DNA of 64,000 nucleotides, from contig JAIPBE010000005.1 of NCBI GenBank assembly GCA_021738725.1, positions 92,802 through 156,801 of the forward strand, in the 5' to 3' direction. Source of the stretch: Saprospiraceae bacterium. GTDB lineage: Bacteria; Bacteroidota; Bacteroidia; Chitinophagales; Saprospiraceae. Positions 42,639 through 48,974 of this stretch are shown in pieces. Below the pieces are notes generated by a model. That model saw only the letters and a program-made list of their open reading frames with translations, was not told the origin of the DNA and searched no databases. The position numbers and the translations under genes were made by a program. Within the stretch, counting starts at the first letter, position 1. Every line of letters begins with the position of its first letter.

Positions 42639-42669
42639 TTTGAATATCTCTGGGAATCAACTACCTTTG
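42639..42669 (+). promoter_or_regulatory. Promoter of rpsO
   Basis: TTTG (42639-42642), a 19-nt spacer and TACCTTTG (42662-42669) form a perfect Bacteroidota promoter. It fixes the rpsO start at 42727, since the track ORF start (42631) is upstream of the promoter. Confidence 0.85.
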
Positions 42670-42726
42670 CACCCGCTAAAGAAGATTTTCGAAATCGCAT
42701 TTGGTCACCTATTTATTTTGATAACT

Positions 42727-43002
42727 ATGAGTGTTTACCTGAGTAAGGAAAAAAAAGACGAGATTTTCGCAAAGTATGGCGGTAGCGCTGAGAATACCGG
42801 ATCCATTGAGGGTCAGGTTGCTCTGTTCACCTATCGAATTGCCAGTCTTTCCGAGCACCTCAAAACTAACAACAAAGACCATTCTTGTCGTCGTGCCTTG
42901 TTACACCTTGTCGGGCAACGGAAACGGATGTTATCCTATATGATGAAAAAGGATATTGCTCGTTTCCGGTCGCTGTGTGACGAACTGGGTATACGTCGAT
43001 AG
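42727..43002 (+). CDS. rpsO: 30S ribosomal protein S15
   Basis: A 91-residue primary rRNA-binding protein of the small subunit. 'EGQVALFTYRIASLSEHLKTNNKDHSCRRALLHLVGQRKRML' is the S15 core that contacts 16S rRNA helices 20-22. The length is normal. I start it at ATG 42727 ('MSVYLSKEKKDEI') because the promoter overlaps the longer track ORF. The order rpsO-pnp is conserved widely; here the two are separated by an intrinsic terminator and about 190 nt, so pnp may depend on read-through or its own promoter. Confidence 0.97.
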   Translation: MSVYLSKEKKDEIFAKYGGSAENTGSIEGQVALFTYRIASLSEHLKTNNKDHSCRRALLHLVGQRKRMLSYMMKKDIARFRSLCDELGIRR

Positions 43003-43012
43003 TCTACCTTAT

Positions 43013-43042
43013 AAAGTGTCCTCATTGGAGGACACTTTTTTT
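43013..43042 (+). terminator. Intrinsic terminator after rpsO
   Basis: The stem aaagtgtcct / aggacacttt with a short loop is followed by a T run (ttttttta), 10 nt past the rpsO stop. Confidence 0.9.
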
Positions 43043-43195
43043 ATCCTCCCTTTAGAAGCGACCGTTCTGCATTGCAGCCCAAGTTCTTTTCCTAACAACG
43101 GCTCCCCAGCAACGCAAATCCCCGGTATCTGCCGTGCTGTTCCATTCGCTTCGGGGACATTGCCTATTTATTGCTGACAATCAAACGCCATTCAC

Positions 43196-45478
43196 ATGGG
43201 GAAGCAAATTCCAACCACCACCTCATTCCATCTTCCTGATGGTCGGGAGGTCATTCTGGAGACCGGAAAATTGGCCACACAGGCTGATGGTTCGGTTGTC
43301 GTACGTTGTGGCAACACGATGATACTCGCTACAGTGGTCTCCGCCATGGAGCCACGTCCAGGAGCACCCTTTTTTCCACTATCTGTTGACTATCAGGAGC
43401 GTTTTGCTGCTGCGGGACGTATCCCGGGCAACTTTTTCCGTCGCGAAACCCGACTGAATGACCATGAAGTTCTGATCTGTCGTCTGATCGACCGGGCTAT
43501 TCGGCCGTTGTTTCCGGATGGCTATATGAATGACACACAAGTCATTCTCAACCTGATCTCAACCGACCTGGATGTACCACCGGATGCATTTGCAGCCCTG
43601 GCTGCCTCCGCGGCCCTTTGGGTTTCCAATATTCCATGGACTGGACCTATCTCCGAAGTTCGTGTGGCCAAGATCAACGGCACCTATCATATCAACCCGA
43701 ACAAGTCGGCTCTGGAAGATGCAACGATGGATATCATTGTCGCGGCGACTGAGGCAGATGTCATGATGGTTGAAGGTGAAATGAAAGAATGCTCCGAGCA
43801 GGAACTGATCGATGCGATCCGTTTCGGACATGACGCCATCAAAACACAGATTGCTGCGCAACACGCGCTGGCACAATTGGTCGGTGAAAAAGCGACCGTC
43901 AAGCGTGTTCGACCCGAAGCTGAAGCCGATGCGGAAATAGAAGCCGCTGTGGCGGCCTTTGCCAAGGACAAAATCCTGGAAGTTGCCAAAGGCGCCCTGG
44001 ACAAAGGCACTCGTAAAGACCGCTTTAAGGCCATCTACGAGGAATACAAGGAAAAAGTGACCGCCGAAAAAGGCGAAGAGTATATCGCGGAAAAAGGCGG
44101 CCTTATGGCCACCTATTTCGACAAACTGAAGAAAAAGGTGATCCGCCAGATGGTTCTGGACACATCTATCCGACTGGATGGACGTCGTCTGGACGAGATC
44201 CGGGATATCTGGACAGAGGTGGATTATTTGCCGACCACCCATGGCTCTGCGATTTTCACACGTGGTGAAACACAGGCCCTGACCTCACTGACACTGGGTA
44301 CCAAGACGGATGCCGCCATGGTTGACACCGCTCAGGAATTCGGATTTTCCAGATTCCTGTTGCACTATAATTTTCCCGGATTTTCCGTTGGTGAAGTGAA
44401 GCCTCAGCGCGGTCCTGGCCGTCGTGAAGTGGGTCACGCCAATCTGGCCGCCCGCTCATTAAAGCAGGTGATGCCGGAAGATTTTCCCTATACCGTCCGG
44501 ATCGTATCCGACATCCTGGAATCGAATGGCTCTTCTTCTATGGCAACAGTTTGTGCCGGTGCCCTGGCAATGATGGATGGCGGTGTACCTATCCGCAGTG
44601 CCGTTTCTGGTATTGCCATGGGTATGATCGCTGAAGGCAACCGGGTAGCTATCCTCTCTGACATTCTCGGAGATGAGGATGCACTGGGTGATATGGACTT
44701 CAAGGTCACTGGTACCGAAAAAGGGATCTGTGCCTGTCAAATGGATATCAAGATCGATGGCCTGCCATATGAGCAACTGGAAAAAGCGCTTGAACAAGCC
44801 CGTCAGGGTCGGTTGCACATCTTGAAGGAAATGGCCAAGACATTGGCTGTTCCAAATGAGGATCTCAAGCCACACGCTCCACGCATTGTGGAGCTCGTCA
44901 TCGACAAGTCCTTCATTGGCGCGGTGATCGGACCTGGTGGTAAGATCATCCAGGAGATGCAGGAGATCACCAAGACCACGATCAACATCGAAGAAAGAGA
45001 CGGCAAAGGATATGTTCAGATCTCATCCAGTAACAAGGAGGATATCGACAATGCTGTGGGACGGATCAAAATGATCACCCACGTACCTGAAATCGGTGAT
45101 GTATATGATGCAGTTGTCGTTTCCTTGCAGCCTTATGGCTGCTTTGTAGACTTCCAGGGCAAGAGTGGCCTGTTGCATATTTCCGAGATCACCTGGGAAC
45201 GCCTGGATCGCGTCGAAGATGCGTTGAATGAAGGCGATACGCTCCAGGTGAAGCTGATCGATATCGATGAGCGGACGGGTAAATTCCGTCTCAGCCGGAA
45301 GGTCCTCCTGCCACGCCCGGAAGGGATGTCTGAAGATGATCGCCCACCGCGCCGTGAAGGCGGAGGTGACCGCGGAGGTGACCGCGGCGGTGACAGAGGT
45401 GGCCGTGGCGGAGATCGCGGTGGAGATCGCGGTGGCAACCGTGGCGGCGGCGGCGGTGGATACCGTGGTGGCCGTTAA
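43196..45478 (+). CDS. pnp: Polyribonucleotide nucleotidyltransferase (PNPase) with RGG-rich tail
   Basis: PNPase degrades RNA 3'-to-5' with phosphate. The 760-residue protein has the first RNase PH domain (about 15-145), a helical linker, the second RNase PH domain with 'TRGETQALTSLTLGTKTDAA' and 'FSVGEVKPQRGPGRREVGH', and a KH domain from about 562 ('SFIGAVIGPGGKIIQEM'). An S1 domain begins near 633 ('GDVYDAVVVSLQPYGCFVDF'). From about 715 the C-terminus is a low-complexity tail of repeated RGGD/RGG units, longer than the usual PNPase end. Such RGG tails bind RNA or drive condensation in other proteins. ATG 43196 gives a normal N-terminus. Confidence 0.97.
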   Translation: MGKQIPTTTSFHLPDGREVILETGKLATQADGSVVVRCGNTMILATVVSAMEPRPGAPFFPLSVDYQERFAAAGRIPGNFFRRETRLNDHEVLICRLIDRAIRPLFPDGYMNDTQVILNLISTDLDVPPDAFAALAASAALWVSNIPWTGPISEVRVAKINGTYHINPNKSALEDATMDIIVAATEADVMMVEGEMKECSEQELIDAIRFGHDAIKTQIAAQHALAQLVGEKATVKRVRPEAEADAEIEAAVAAFAKDKILEVAKGALDKGTRKDRFKAIYEEYKEKVTAEKGEEYIAEKGGLMATYFDKLKKKVIRQMVLDTSIRLDGRRLDEIRDIWTEVDYLPTTHGSAIFTRGETQALTSLTLGTKTDAAMVDTAQEFGFSRFLLHYNFPGFSVGEVKPQRGPGRREVGHANLAARSLKQVMPEDFPYTVRIVSDILESNGSSSMATVCAGALAMMDGGVPIRSAVSGIAMGMIAEGNRVAILSDILGDEDALGDMDFKVTGTEKGICACQMDIKIDGLPYEQLEKALEQARQGRLHILKEMAKTLAVPNEDLKPHAPRIVELVIDKSFIGAVIGPGGKIIQEMQEITKTTINIEERDGKGYVQISSSNKEDIDNAVGRIKMITHVPEIGDVYDAVVVSLQPYGCFVDFQGKSGLLHISEITWERLDRVEDALNEGDTLQVKLIDIDERTGKFRLSRKVLLPRPEGMSEDDRPPRREGGGDRGGDRGGDRGGRGGDRGGDRGGNRGGGGGGYRGGR

Positions 45479-45570: not shown

Positions 45571-46233
45571 ATGTGGTACTGGCGATGCATCCTCGCAGTC
45601 TGTCTCTTTTCTTCTTGCGTCGGACAACGGCAGATCTATCCGTTGGTCGAAAGCGAATCCGCCGTCGGCATTCAGGCTGGCGGTCCACTTATCCAATTGG
45701 GTGATGCCATCCTGCCTATTCCATTTTCTGCCCTGTATGCGGCCAGAGGATTGGCGCATGGTTGGATGGCAGACTTAGGCATCCATACCTCCGCCTTATT
45801 GTACAAAACCATCTATCTGGATCCCGGAGCCCAAAAGACATTTGCATTTCCGTCTGGTATCCGGCCCGGGCTCAACACCGGAATACGCCTTAATACCATG
45901 ACCGATCTTTCTCTCCAGCGATGGCGATTCTACCCCCAGGCAGACCTGCATTTATGGTGGGCCGACACCCCCAACCGGCATTTGGGCTATATCGGGATGA
46001 GTCACTGGTTTGACCCGCACCGTGAACAGGCCAGAGAGCGATCCACCTACAAGTTGTGGCGGCCAGCTGTCTATATCGGATACCAATACCGACGGAATGA
46101 CTGGGATTTCAGCCTGGAGTCCAAATGGCTGGCTCCCGGAACGGATAATCGCTTCAATGCCATCGAATATCAGGCACCCGCTCACCAGGGTGCACTGGGC
46201 TTCTACCTCACCGTCCAATACCGATTTCTATGA
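45571..46233 (+). CDS. Putative lipoprotein or outer-membrane beta-structured protein
   Basis: About 220 residues from ATG 45571; the track start at 45529 lies in the terminator tail. The N-terminus 'MWYWRCILAVCLFSSC' looks like a lipoprotein signal with Cys16. The rest is rich in aromatic residues and alternating beta-type segments ('RFYPQADLHLWWADT', 'WRPAVYIGYQYRRNDWDFSLE') and ends 'LGFYLTVQYRFL'. A terminal aromatic like this is common in outer-membrane beta-barrels. I do not recognise the family. Its stop overlaps the ATG of the next gene (ATGA), so the two are translated together. Confidence 0.7.
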   Translation: MWYWRCILAVCLFSSCVGQRQIYPLVESESAVGIQAGGPLIQLGDAILPIPFSALYAARGLAHGWMADLGIHTSALLYKTIYLDPGAQKTFAFPSGIRPGLNTGIRLNTMTDLSLQRWRFYPQADLHLWWADTPNRHLGYIGMSHWFDPHREQARERSTYKLWRPAVYIGYQYRRNDWDFSLESKWLAPGTDNRFNAIEYQAPAHQGALGFYLTVQYRFL

Positions 46234-47120
46234 GGCACTTCCTGCAGTTTATTGCGATGGCTACCATCCTGATGGCAACGGGATGTCTTCGTCTGGACGA
46301 CTACCTGTTCAATCCAGCATCCATAGATGCATACTATCTCGATGACTATACCGGGAAAGTAGATTTTCGGCTGCCCCCGGAGGACCACATACCTGACAGT
46401 CTCATTCACTGGGTGCCTCTCATCAGCTCCACAAATGGCAAATCCGTCAACATCCAGGGTCTCTATGTCGGAGATCTGGCAACGATAACGCAGGACACGA
46501 TCATCTTGTATTGCCACGGAAACCGGGATCACCTTGATTTCTACTGGCCGAGGATTCAATTGCTCGCCCAAACCCGCTTCGATCACAGATATGGTGTCAT
46601 GTCTCTCGATTATCAGGGATATGGCTTATCTGCAGGTACGCCGAGTCAGAATGGAATCATTGAAGATGCATTTACGGCCCTGGACTGGCTGATCGATCGA
46701 GGTGTTTCACCAGACAAGATCATCGTTTATGGATTCTCAATGGGATCTATTCCCGCTGTTGCATTGGCCGGTTCTGCGACCCTTTCTGGAAGGGGTGGAT
46801 TGATCCTTGAGGCACCTTTGGCCAGCAGTGAAACGTTGGTGCAGGATGGTTCTACTCTTACACTCCCCGCCAGTTTTCTTCTGGATCTCGATTTCGACAA
46901 TATTGCCGGTATGGCCATGATCAGCCAACCCCTCTTGTGGATCCATGGAGAGGACGACCAGACCACGGCCATTCGTACGCATGGAGAGCCTGTCTTTCAG
47001 GCGTATAAAGGTGTGCGATCCACAGCCATCCGATTGCCGGGAGGCGCGCATGACGATCTGCCGGTTGTGCTTGGTTTTACGGCCTATCTCCAGGCCGTAG
47101 AGAAGGTCTTAGCCCCATAA
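46230..47120 (+). CDS. Alpha/beta-hydrolase fold lipoprotein
   Basis: 296 residues with signal and lipobox ('FIAMATILMATGC', Cys19), so probably lipid-anchored in the periplasm. The hydrolase fold shows the strand and oxyanion region 'IILYCHGNRDHLDFYWPR', the nucleophile elbow 'GFSMGS' (Ser near residue 170), an acid in 'HGEDDQTT' and a His in 'LPGGAHDDLP'. It resembles the BEM46-like serine hydrolases. Substrate unknown. It is translationally coupled to the upstream putative lipoprotein through an ATGA overlap. Confidence 0.88.
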   Translation: MRHFLQFIAMATILMATGCLRLDDYLFNPASIDAYYLDDYTGKVDFRLPPEDHIPDSLIHWVPLISSTNGKSVNIQGLYVGDLATITQDTIILYCHGNRDHLDFYWPRIQLLAQTRFDHRYGVMSLDYQGYGLSAGTPSQNGIIEDAFTALDWLIDRGVSPDKIIVYGFSMGSIPAVALAGSATLSGRGGLILEAPLASSETLVQDGSTLTLPASFLLDLDFDNIAGMAMISQPLLWIHGEDDQTTAIRTHGEPVFQAYKGVRSTAIRLPGGAHDDLPVVLGFTAYLQAVEKVLAP

Positions 47121-47157: not shown

Positions 47158-47178
47158 CCATGTTAATACTTAACATGG
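47158..47178. repeat. Perfect 9-bp dyad (operator-like)
   Basis: CCATGTTAA-tac-TTAACATGG, with no T run after it, lies 38 nt past the hydrolase stop and about 100 nt before the promoter of the small ORF. It could be a regulator binding site or an mRNA 3' hairpin. Confidence 0.4.
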
Positions 47179-47273: not shown

Positions 47274-47304
47274 TTTGATTTAATATTAGAAAGTGATATA
47301 TTTG
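47274..47304 (+). promoter_or_regulatory. Promoter of the 53-residue ORF
   Basis: TTTG (47274-47277), a 19-nt spacer and TATATTTG (47297-47304) form a perfect Bacteroidota promoter in an AT-rich gap. The expected start of transcription is near 47311, giving a leader of about 70 nt. Confidence 0.8.
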
Positions 47305-47379
47305 TACTGTTGATCCGGATAGCTCTGGCTTTGATCTCATCCGGCAACTGATTGTAATCCCTTTCCCGAACCAAATCCC

Positions 47380-47541
47380 ATGAACATGGTTCATCTTGAC
47401 ATTTATCCAAAGCCGACACCCCAGGAGGTGCAGAAGATCCTGGCCGATCTGGAGTCCACTCAGGACCAAAAGATCAAAGACCAAATTGCCGTGGTTTGTA
47501 TCATGTGCATCGGTCTTTTCGGCCTGTTGATTTCTCTTTAA
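47380..47541 (+). CDS. 53-residue tail-anchored small membrane protein
   Basis: Too short for the ORF track. ATG 47380 (or 47386) to TAA 47541 encodes a soluble amphipathic half ('DIYPKPTPQEVQKILADLES') and then one C-terminal membrane helix ('IAVVCIMCIGLFGLLISL') with two Cys. The gene has a perfect promoter 76 nt upstream and a strong terminator 33 nt downstream, so it is a complete monocistronic unit. I know no family for it. A small membrane regulator is possible, but that is speculation. The overlapping minus-strand ORF of 163 residues looks spurious by comparison. Confidence 0.7.
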   Translation: MNMVHLDIYPKPTPQEVQKILADLESTQDQKIKDQIAVVCIMCIGLFGLLISL

Positions 47542-47573
47542 ATCCTGGAATGATCGGTAGTAAACACCAACCC

Positions 47574-47616
47574 GACTAAGCCTGCCTTGTCCGTCTGGCG
47601 GGCTTAGTCCTTTTTT
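47574..47616 (+). terminator. Intrinsic terminator after the 53-residue ORF
   Basis: gactaagcctgcc / ggcgggcttagtc is a 13-bp stem with one G-U and a 10-nt loop, followed by cctttttt. The inner part resembles the GC-rich palindromic boxes found elsewhere in the window. Confidence 0.9.
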
Positions 47617-47642: not shown

Positions 47643-48746
47643 ATGCCGTCGAGCTGGTCAAAATCCGTGTGTATCGAATTGTTGAAACAGGCCCCTTTTC
47701 TGGCCGACCTCTTCATTCGTATACCCATCCAATCCACTCCTCTGTCGGATCAACTGACCCTCTCTATTCAGAAAGGCCATCCCTGTTTTCAGCCCCCGTC
47801 AGATCCGTCCTTCACTCCAGCACTACTATGTAAAAGCTATCATCATCTGCTGCACCTCGCGCTGGCACATCCACTTTTATCCGCCTCTATGTACGATGAT
47901 GTCACCTGGCATCTCGCTCTGGATTCGATCGTTAACCAACAGATCCCTCTGGCGGTCAGGGAATATGATCCAGCCTGTACCCTACCCGCCCAATTCCCAC
48001 CCGAGGCGTCTTTATTCCAGGCATGGACCTGGTGGTCCCAGCATCTTCACGAGGCCACCCCTCAGACACTGAGTGCCCTTGGAGAACATCAGTTATGGAG
48101 GGAGCCTGACCGGACGCTGACACTATCCACAGTCCAATCCTGGCTGTGCCCTTCAACCATGCCAGAACCTGTTCAACATATACGTGAAGAATCCTTTGGC
48201 CTGATGGAAGGTCTTGCCTGGCAAGAATGTTTGATCAACATCAGCGGCAGTTCATCGTCCACACGGTTGACTTGGACAACCAGAAAGGCATCCCGGCGCT
48301 ATGGTACCCATCCGGGTATCCGCATCCGTTCTCGGGGCAGCCTGGTTGTCATTCTGGATACCAGCGGCAGTATGAAGCCGGCAGATCTAAACGCCATTTT
48401 CGGGTTTTTACCGGAAGTCCAGCGATATTACAGAAAGATCCACATCGTGGAAAGTGATTTCAAGGTGAGGCAATCCTATTTATATCAGGGCCAGACACCT
48501 GGCCACATCGAAGGCAGGGGAGACACCTTCTTTCAACCGGCGCTGGACTATGTCCAGCAACATCTGAGACCAGACAACATCTGGTATGTGACGGATGGCC
48601 GAGGTGTTGCACCCCGGATCAAGACCCCTACCCCACTCGCGTGGATCCTTTGCGGAGACCGACCGCCCCTTGATGAATTGACATCTTTTCCTGGAATTTT
48701 GGTTCCGGTGAACATTCCGCCAACTGTTGGCGTTATTCCCACATAA
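47643..48746 (+). CDS. VWA-like domain protein (DUF2201/COG3864-like)
   Basis: A 367-residue cytosolic protein. The C-terminal third is a von Willebrand A-type fold with the metal site 'VVILDTSGSMKPADLNAIFG' (DxSGS near residue 239) and 'GRGDTFFQPALDYVQQ', as in the VWA-like proteins paired with MoxR-type AAA ATPases. The N-terminal half is helical and His/Leu-rich ('KSYHHLLHLALAHPLLSASM') and corresponds to the putative metallopeptidase domain of that family. No HExxH motif is evident, so the N-domain may be inactive. No MoxR ATPase gene is next to it, which is unusual. It is followed after 15 nt by a PspC-domain gene. Confidence 0.8.
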   Translation: MPSSWSKSVCIELLKQAPFLADLFIRIPIQSTPLSDQLTLSIQKGHPCFQPPSDPSFTPALLCKSYHHLLHLALAHPLLSASMYDDVTWHLALDSIVNQQIPLAVREYDPACTLPAQFPPEASLFQAWTWWSQHLHEATPQTLSALGEHQLWREPDRTLTLSTVQSWLCPSTMPEPVQHIREESFGLMEGLAWQECLINISGSSSSTRLTWTTRKASRRYGTHPGIRIRSRGSLVVILDTSGSMKPADLNAIFGFLPEVQRYYRKIHIVESDFKVRQSYLYQGQTPGHIEGRGDTFFQPALDYVQQHLRPDNIWYVTDGRGVAPRIKTPTPLAWILCGDRPPLDELTSFPGILVPVNIPPTVGVIPT

Positions 48747-48761
48747 ACCAGAACTCGACCT

Positions 48762-48974
48762 ATGCATTTTCGCAGTTTGATGGAACGCTCTGCCTTTGGC
48801 GTCTGCTCGTATGTCGGACAGAAGATCGGGATTGCGGCCAGCCGTGTCCGAATCTATTTCATCTACCTGTCGTTTGTGACCCTGGGCTCATCGGTCATCC
48901 TTTACCTGTTTGCATGGTTTTGGATGAACATACGCCAGTACTTGCGCCGTGGATCGTCGATCCAGTGGGAATGA
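48762..48974 (+). CDS. PspC-domain small membrane protein
   Basis: 70 residues: 'SAFGVCSYVGQKIGIAASRVRIYFIYLSFVTLGSSVILYLF' is a PspC domain with one strong membrane helix and a basic end. PspC proteins sense or stabilise the inner membrane under stress in other bacteria. It lies 15 nt behind the VWA gene and is probably co-transcribed with it. Its stop codon directly abuts the stop of the convergent DUF4159 gene. Confidence 0.9.
   Translation: MHFRSLMERSAFGVCSYVGQKIGIAASRVRIYFIYLSFVTLGSSVILYLFAWFWMNIRQYLRRGSSIQWE

Follow-up and report, generated by a model that had tools for sequence, protein, structure and literature searches.

A short conserved gene in one Saprospiraceae genus that probably encodes a tail-anchored small membrane protein

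Does the stretch between an S33-type hydrolase with a lipobox (46230-47120) and a DUF2201 VWA-like protein (47643-48746) followed by PspC (48762-48974) hold a gene of its own, and what might its product do? The initial annotation of the window, the 64-kb piece of Saprospiraceae DNA analysed here, had placed at this site a complete unit of promoter, short membrane-peptide frame and terminator. We find this location, between the hydrolase and the VWA-PspC pair (47643-48974), to be correct. The locus in the genome of the window (G000, contig C15) was compared with that of its congeners; four genomes carry the gene and three of them are informative. Judged by sequence comparison, the promoter, the coding frame, purifying selection, the terminator and a leader hairpin are all supported. 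We favour, as the somewhat likelier reading, a small membrane protein that is tail-anchored, confined to the genus and made from a free-standing gene; it would dock on a partner, and its leader would tune its translation.

A transcription unit with its own promoter and terminator

The unit opens on the forward strand with a putative sigma-ABfr promoter (47274-47304), in which TTTG (47274-47277) is followed after a 19-nt spacer by TATATTTG (47297-47304). This arrangement, TTTG-N19-TATATTTG, agrees with the -33/-7 consensus known for the primary sigma factor of Bacteroidota (PMC6847099, PMC7366714). On both strands of the 64-kb window TTTG-N17..22-TANNTTTG has four matches only, one of which precedes rpsO. 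Markov simulation of the window gives a chance expectation of 0.18 for the N19 form, and its TATATTTG version arose in none of 60 simulated runs. Both boxes and the 19-nt spacing are retained in two congeners (G003 and G004), where the spacer sequence has diverged; in a third (G002) the promoter is 100% identical as far as the contig reaches, which stops within the -7 box. Thus, the promoter proposed from the window is an exact match and is kept with its spacing in relatives. At the other end lies a predicted intrinsic terminator (47574-47616, forward strand) with a 13-bp stem (47574-47609) and a T6 run that ends at 47616; its predicted fold has -24.6 kcal/mol (z -6.1). In G003, 34 of 36 nt of the terminator are identical, including the loop, and the stem is nearly unchanged, compared with 56% identity of the 3' UTR. 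The terminator sequence is single-copy in each of three genomes.

The unit is far better conserved than what surrounds it. In G002 identity amounts to 96% in the leader, 96% of nucleotides in the open reading frame (ORF) and 97% in the terminator, against 70% of nucleotides in the adjoining VWA gene, and in G003 the sequence flanking the unit on both sides is 41-48% identical, near background. The terminator that had been called strong has a stable predicted fold, and promoter and terminator are conserved together with the ORF as parts of one unit. Contigs break inside the 340-nt unit in two of the three relatives (G002, C49/C230; G004, C61). Despite these breaks the unit is single-copy by sequence search, and they are perhaps an assembly effect.

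The unit appears to stand free of most of its neighbours. In G003 the locus order is pnp - small gene - pspC - DUF4159, and because the unit persists there without the lipoprotein-like gene (45529 in the window), the hydrolase and the VWA gene, we regard the small gene as independent of all three. No stable operon that would point to a binding partner was found, the shared neighbourhood being pnp and pspC only. This arrangement also bears on the idea that ORF and terminator form an attenuator or leader-peptide unit that sets read-through into VWA and PspC. The VWA gene begins 33 nt past the terminator stem without an intervening consensus promoter, as would suit attenuation. However, a leader peptide would need far less than 53 conserved codons and a membrane helix, the peptide contains no regulatory codon run, the predicted fold holds no competing (mutually exclusive) anti-terminator hairpin, and the unit is retained in G003, where the VWA gene is absent. 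An attenuator is therefore improbable.

Some further features of the region may be recorded. No consensus promoter was seen directly upstream of the VWA-like (DUF2201) gene and PspC (47643-48974), and since none stands directly before VWA, both genes might rely on transcripts that read through from the small gene. A near-perfect palindrome, CCATGTTAATACTTAACATGG (47158-47178), lies 3' of the hydrolase gene, lacks a T-run and is conserved in G002 except for one change; it is possibly a regulator site rather than a terminator. The C-terminal tail of PNPase consists of RGG/RGGD repeats (window 45390-45478).

Selection on the coding frame and the predicted protein

The 53-codon ORF, MNMVHLDIYPKPTPQEVQKILADLESTQDQKIKDQIAVVCIMCIGLFGLLISL, runs on the forward strand from ATG at 47380 to TAA at 47541, in agreement with the initial annotation. 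Of the four further species of the genus that were sampled, three have the peptide (G002, G003 and G004). G002 differs from the window at 6 of 162 nt, every change is synonymous and the peptide is identical (dN/dS 0/0.20). The more distant G003 has 30 nucleotide differences without indels or stops, of which the consequence is 10 amino-acid changes; 43 of 53 residues (81%) are kept, with dN 0.099, dS 0.907 and dN/dS about 0.11. In G004 the contig ends after 25 codons, and 23 of these 25 residues (92%) are conserved. Residues 1-25 are nearly invariant across the relatives. The fourth species, G001, gave no peptide match, and pnp (weak S1-domain-like matches only), the hydrolase, VWA and DUF4159 are likewise absent from its assembly; because these surrounding genes are missing too, the absence carries no weight.

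Could such a frame be open by chance, within a non-coding RNA that is structured or within DNA conserved for some other reason? There is real constraint at the RNA level, described below, and one frame on the reverse strand is also open across the ORF, both of which would fit a chance frame. It is contradicted by the distribution of changes over codon positions 1/2/3, which is 1/0/5 in G002 and 6/4/20 in G003, and by permutation: in 20,000 trials, random placement of the changes was equally conservative in 0.06% of cases for G002 (p=0.0006) and in 0 of 20,000 for G003 (p<5e-5), the figure for G004 being 4%. The annotated frame is the best conserved of the six in both full-length comparisons (G002 and G003). 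We hence give a chance frame almost no credence. The proposed check for purifying selection gave a clear answer, and neither loss of the frame nor conservation of RNA structure alone was encountered when we looked for them in relatives, where the frame is conserved and change is mostly synonymous. The gene is very probably real and protein-coding; dN/dS and permutation indicate purifying selection on a short ORF, as expected for a gene of a small single-pass membrane protein.

The predicted protein has two parts. Residues 36-53 (47485-47538) are clearly hydrophobic (mean Kyte-Doolittle 2.9) and reach the C terminus without a tail, which bears out the C-terminal helix that had been proposed, and AlphaFold2 predicts with moderate confidence a single helix over residues 14-52 (mean pLDDT 78). 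Hydropathy and structure prediction thus agree on one membrane helix, as in small single-pass membrane proteins. The claim of an amphipathic half holds in part: an amphipathic moment is present in the N-terminal part, but it is modest (Eisenberg moment 0.27-0.37 for windows that begin at residues 11-18). Most substitutions within the membrane segment are conservative (V/M, C/F, C/G, F/I, L/M, I/V), and the segment stays about as hydrophobic (2.86 and 2.56). The membrane helix contains a cysteine pair, C40 and C43; a role of this pair in redox or metal chemistry was considered and rejected because the pair is not conserved in G003.

Two in-frame AUGs, at 47380 and 47386, are both conserved. Reporters and profiling in Flavobacterium johnsoniae indicate that A at -3, -6, -12 and -13 favours initiation (PMC6847099). 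The second AUG has A at all four positions and the first has C at -3. Because its context is the better one for Bacteroidota, the actual product may have 51 residues (MVHLDIYPKP...) and start at 47386.

Constraint on the leader RNA

From the predicted start site, a 5' leader of about 70 nt extends from 47308 to 47379 (forward strand). Its identity is 96% in G002 and 67% in G003, compared with 48% for the upstream intergenic sequence. Positions 47348-47379 are nearly invariant in all four genomes, and the block from 47348 to codon 8 varies only by two pyrimidine changes, an inserted T and perhaps its first base. Synonymous change is suppressed in codons 1-12 at a borderline level only (1/10 vs 19/40, p=0.037; for codons 1-8, p=0.07). 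Upstream of this block a hairpin, P1 (47315-47344), is predicted. Its arms are CCGGAT/ATCCGG in G000 and G002, AGGATG/CATCCT in G003 and CAGATG/CATCTG in G004, such that two pairs are altered on both sides (hand alignment by structure, read by eye), and its loop UGGCUUU (47326-47332) is conserved. A second hairpin, P2 (GAACCA...UGGUUC, 47368-47392, -5.9 kcal/mol), is predicted in all four genomes. The first AUG lies inside its loop and the second partly within its 3' arm; a weaker, mutually exclusive alternative, AUGAAC-AUG-GUUCAU, reaches -3.4 kcal/mol. The sequence of P2 is invariant and so shows no covariation. Folded singly, the leader sequences do not exceed shuffled ones in stability (z -0.7 to +0.5), and the argument for RNA structure is accordingly a comparative one. 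On this comparative basis we infer that constraint on the RNA exists besides coding, namely in the leader hairpin, the start-codon block and the terminator. As the start codons sit in a conserved hairpin, the leader might tune translation.

A more elaborate switch can be drawn. Codons 10-12, CCAAAGCC (47407-47414), are complementary to the P1 loop, and the duplex has -9.7 to -11.6 kcal/mol in each of the four genomes. The conservation of these codons is partly accounted for by the protein, and they show no covariation with the loop. RNAalifold, given the hand-made alignment, preferred this long-range pairing over P1, and the two are compatible only as a pseudoknot. Such a tentative kissing interaction would enclose the start-codon hairpin and gate translation of the peptide. 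We consider this unlikely; if true, it would amount to a novel cis-acting switch in a bacterium that lacks Shine-Dalgarno sequences. The transcript might also be a dual-function RNA, acting as a regulator through its leader loop or 3' hairpin besides encoding the peptide. The compensatory changes in P1 speak for it, as does the near-constancy of start-codon block and terminator stem at a synonymous divergence of about 0.9, but no Rfam covariance model matches at gathering score and ordinary autoregulation would explain the leader, which leaves a second RNA function doubtful.

The leader also has a counterpart nearby. The rpsO leader (42639-42720), directly after a TTTG-N19-TACCTTTG promoter, and the rpsO-pnp intergenic region (42990-43200) are strongly conserved in G004, which suggests that these leaders are structured or regulated. 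Because they are conserved too, leader conservation alone is no evidence for an unusual switch. The rpsO leader likewise combines a sigma-ABfr promoter with a conserved leader. At the small gene, in contrast to both, the conserved block continues through the start codons into a membrane-protein ORF. The conserved leader lends itself as a compact system in which to study how start codons are chosen and translation is controlled in bacteria without Shine-Dalgarno sequences.

A small membrane protein of one genus and its possible role

As far as sampled, the gene is restricted to one Saprospiraceae genus. No homologue was found outside it among about 390 family genomes and no relative in viral contigs or in phage or plasmid collections. 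Pfam, NCBIfam, PHROGs and PDB gave sub-threshold chance matches only, and a look just downstream of pnp in 26 other genomes revealed no promoter-bearing membrane-peptide gene. Weak protein matches in other genera fall within unrelated long ORFs or are interrupted by stops, those inspected being chance matches, and the sole covariance-model match outside the genus (G146, E 0.005) falls inside a DNA methyltransferase-like gene.

A type I toxin, a membrane-damaging peptide whose structured mRNA is silenced by an antisense RNA, shares with this gene the small hydrophobic product and the structured mRNA common to such systems (reviewed in PMC8309996), and the strong promoter, the leader hiding the start codons and the stable terminator would suit it. 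However, the reverse strand carries no TANNTTTG element between 47250 and 47700 and no adjacent antisense promoter, the gene is a single, vertically inherited copy without plasmid or phage copies, and conservation is highest in its soluble half. Moreover, according to a 2025 study of Cyanobacteria (PMC12390103), type I systems had until then been described from Proteobacteria, Firmicutes and Tenericutes only. A variant with a trans-encoded antitoxin RNA may be compatible with the missing reverse-strand promoter, yet the odds are well against a toxin. Both a toxin and an attenuator role are less likely than that of a partner-docking small membrane protein. In this preferred reading, transcription would start from the housekeeping sigma-ABfr promoter and end at the gene's own terminator, and leader-tuned translation would yield a protein with a single membrane helix at its C terminus, no tail behind that helix, and a short N-terminal segment that is polar, mildly amphipathic and presumably cytoplasmic. 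At the inner membrane, the near-invariant N-terminal half would then dock on a partner.

By analogy, a conserved short soluble part on an anchor conserved in its physical properties fits a membrane-tethered partner-binding peptide, and the protein is probably regulatory. AcrZ, MgrB, KdpF and Prli42 (PMC11539335) likewise have at most about 50 residues, a single hydrophobic helix and no catalytic domain. Here, in contrast, the helix lies at the extreme C terminus, and the protein is genus-restricted and without sequence similarity to any family; because of this lack of a family match the likeness is a working analogy and not a membership. The gene would thus add an orphan family, and by itself no new mechanism, to the known class of small membrane proteins, and it illustrates that a complete, selected small-protein gene in an uncultured lineage can be recognised from its sequence and then confirmed by comparison.
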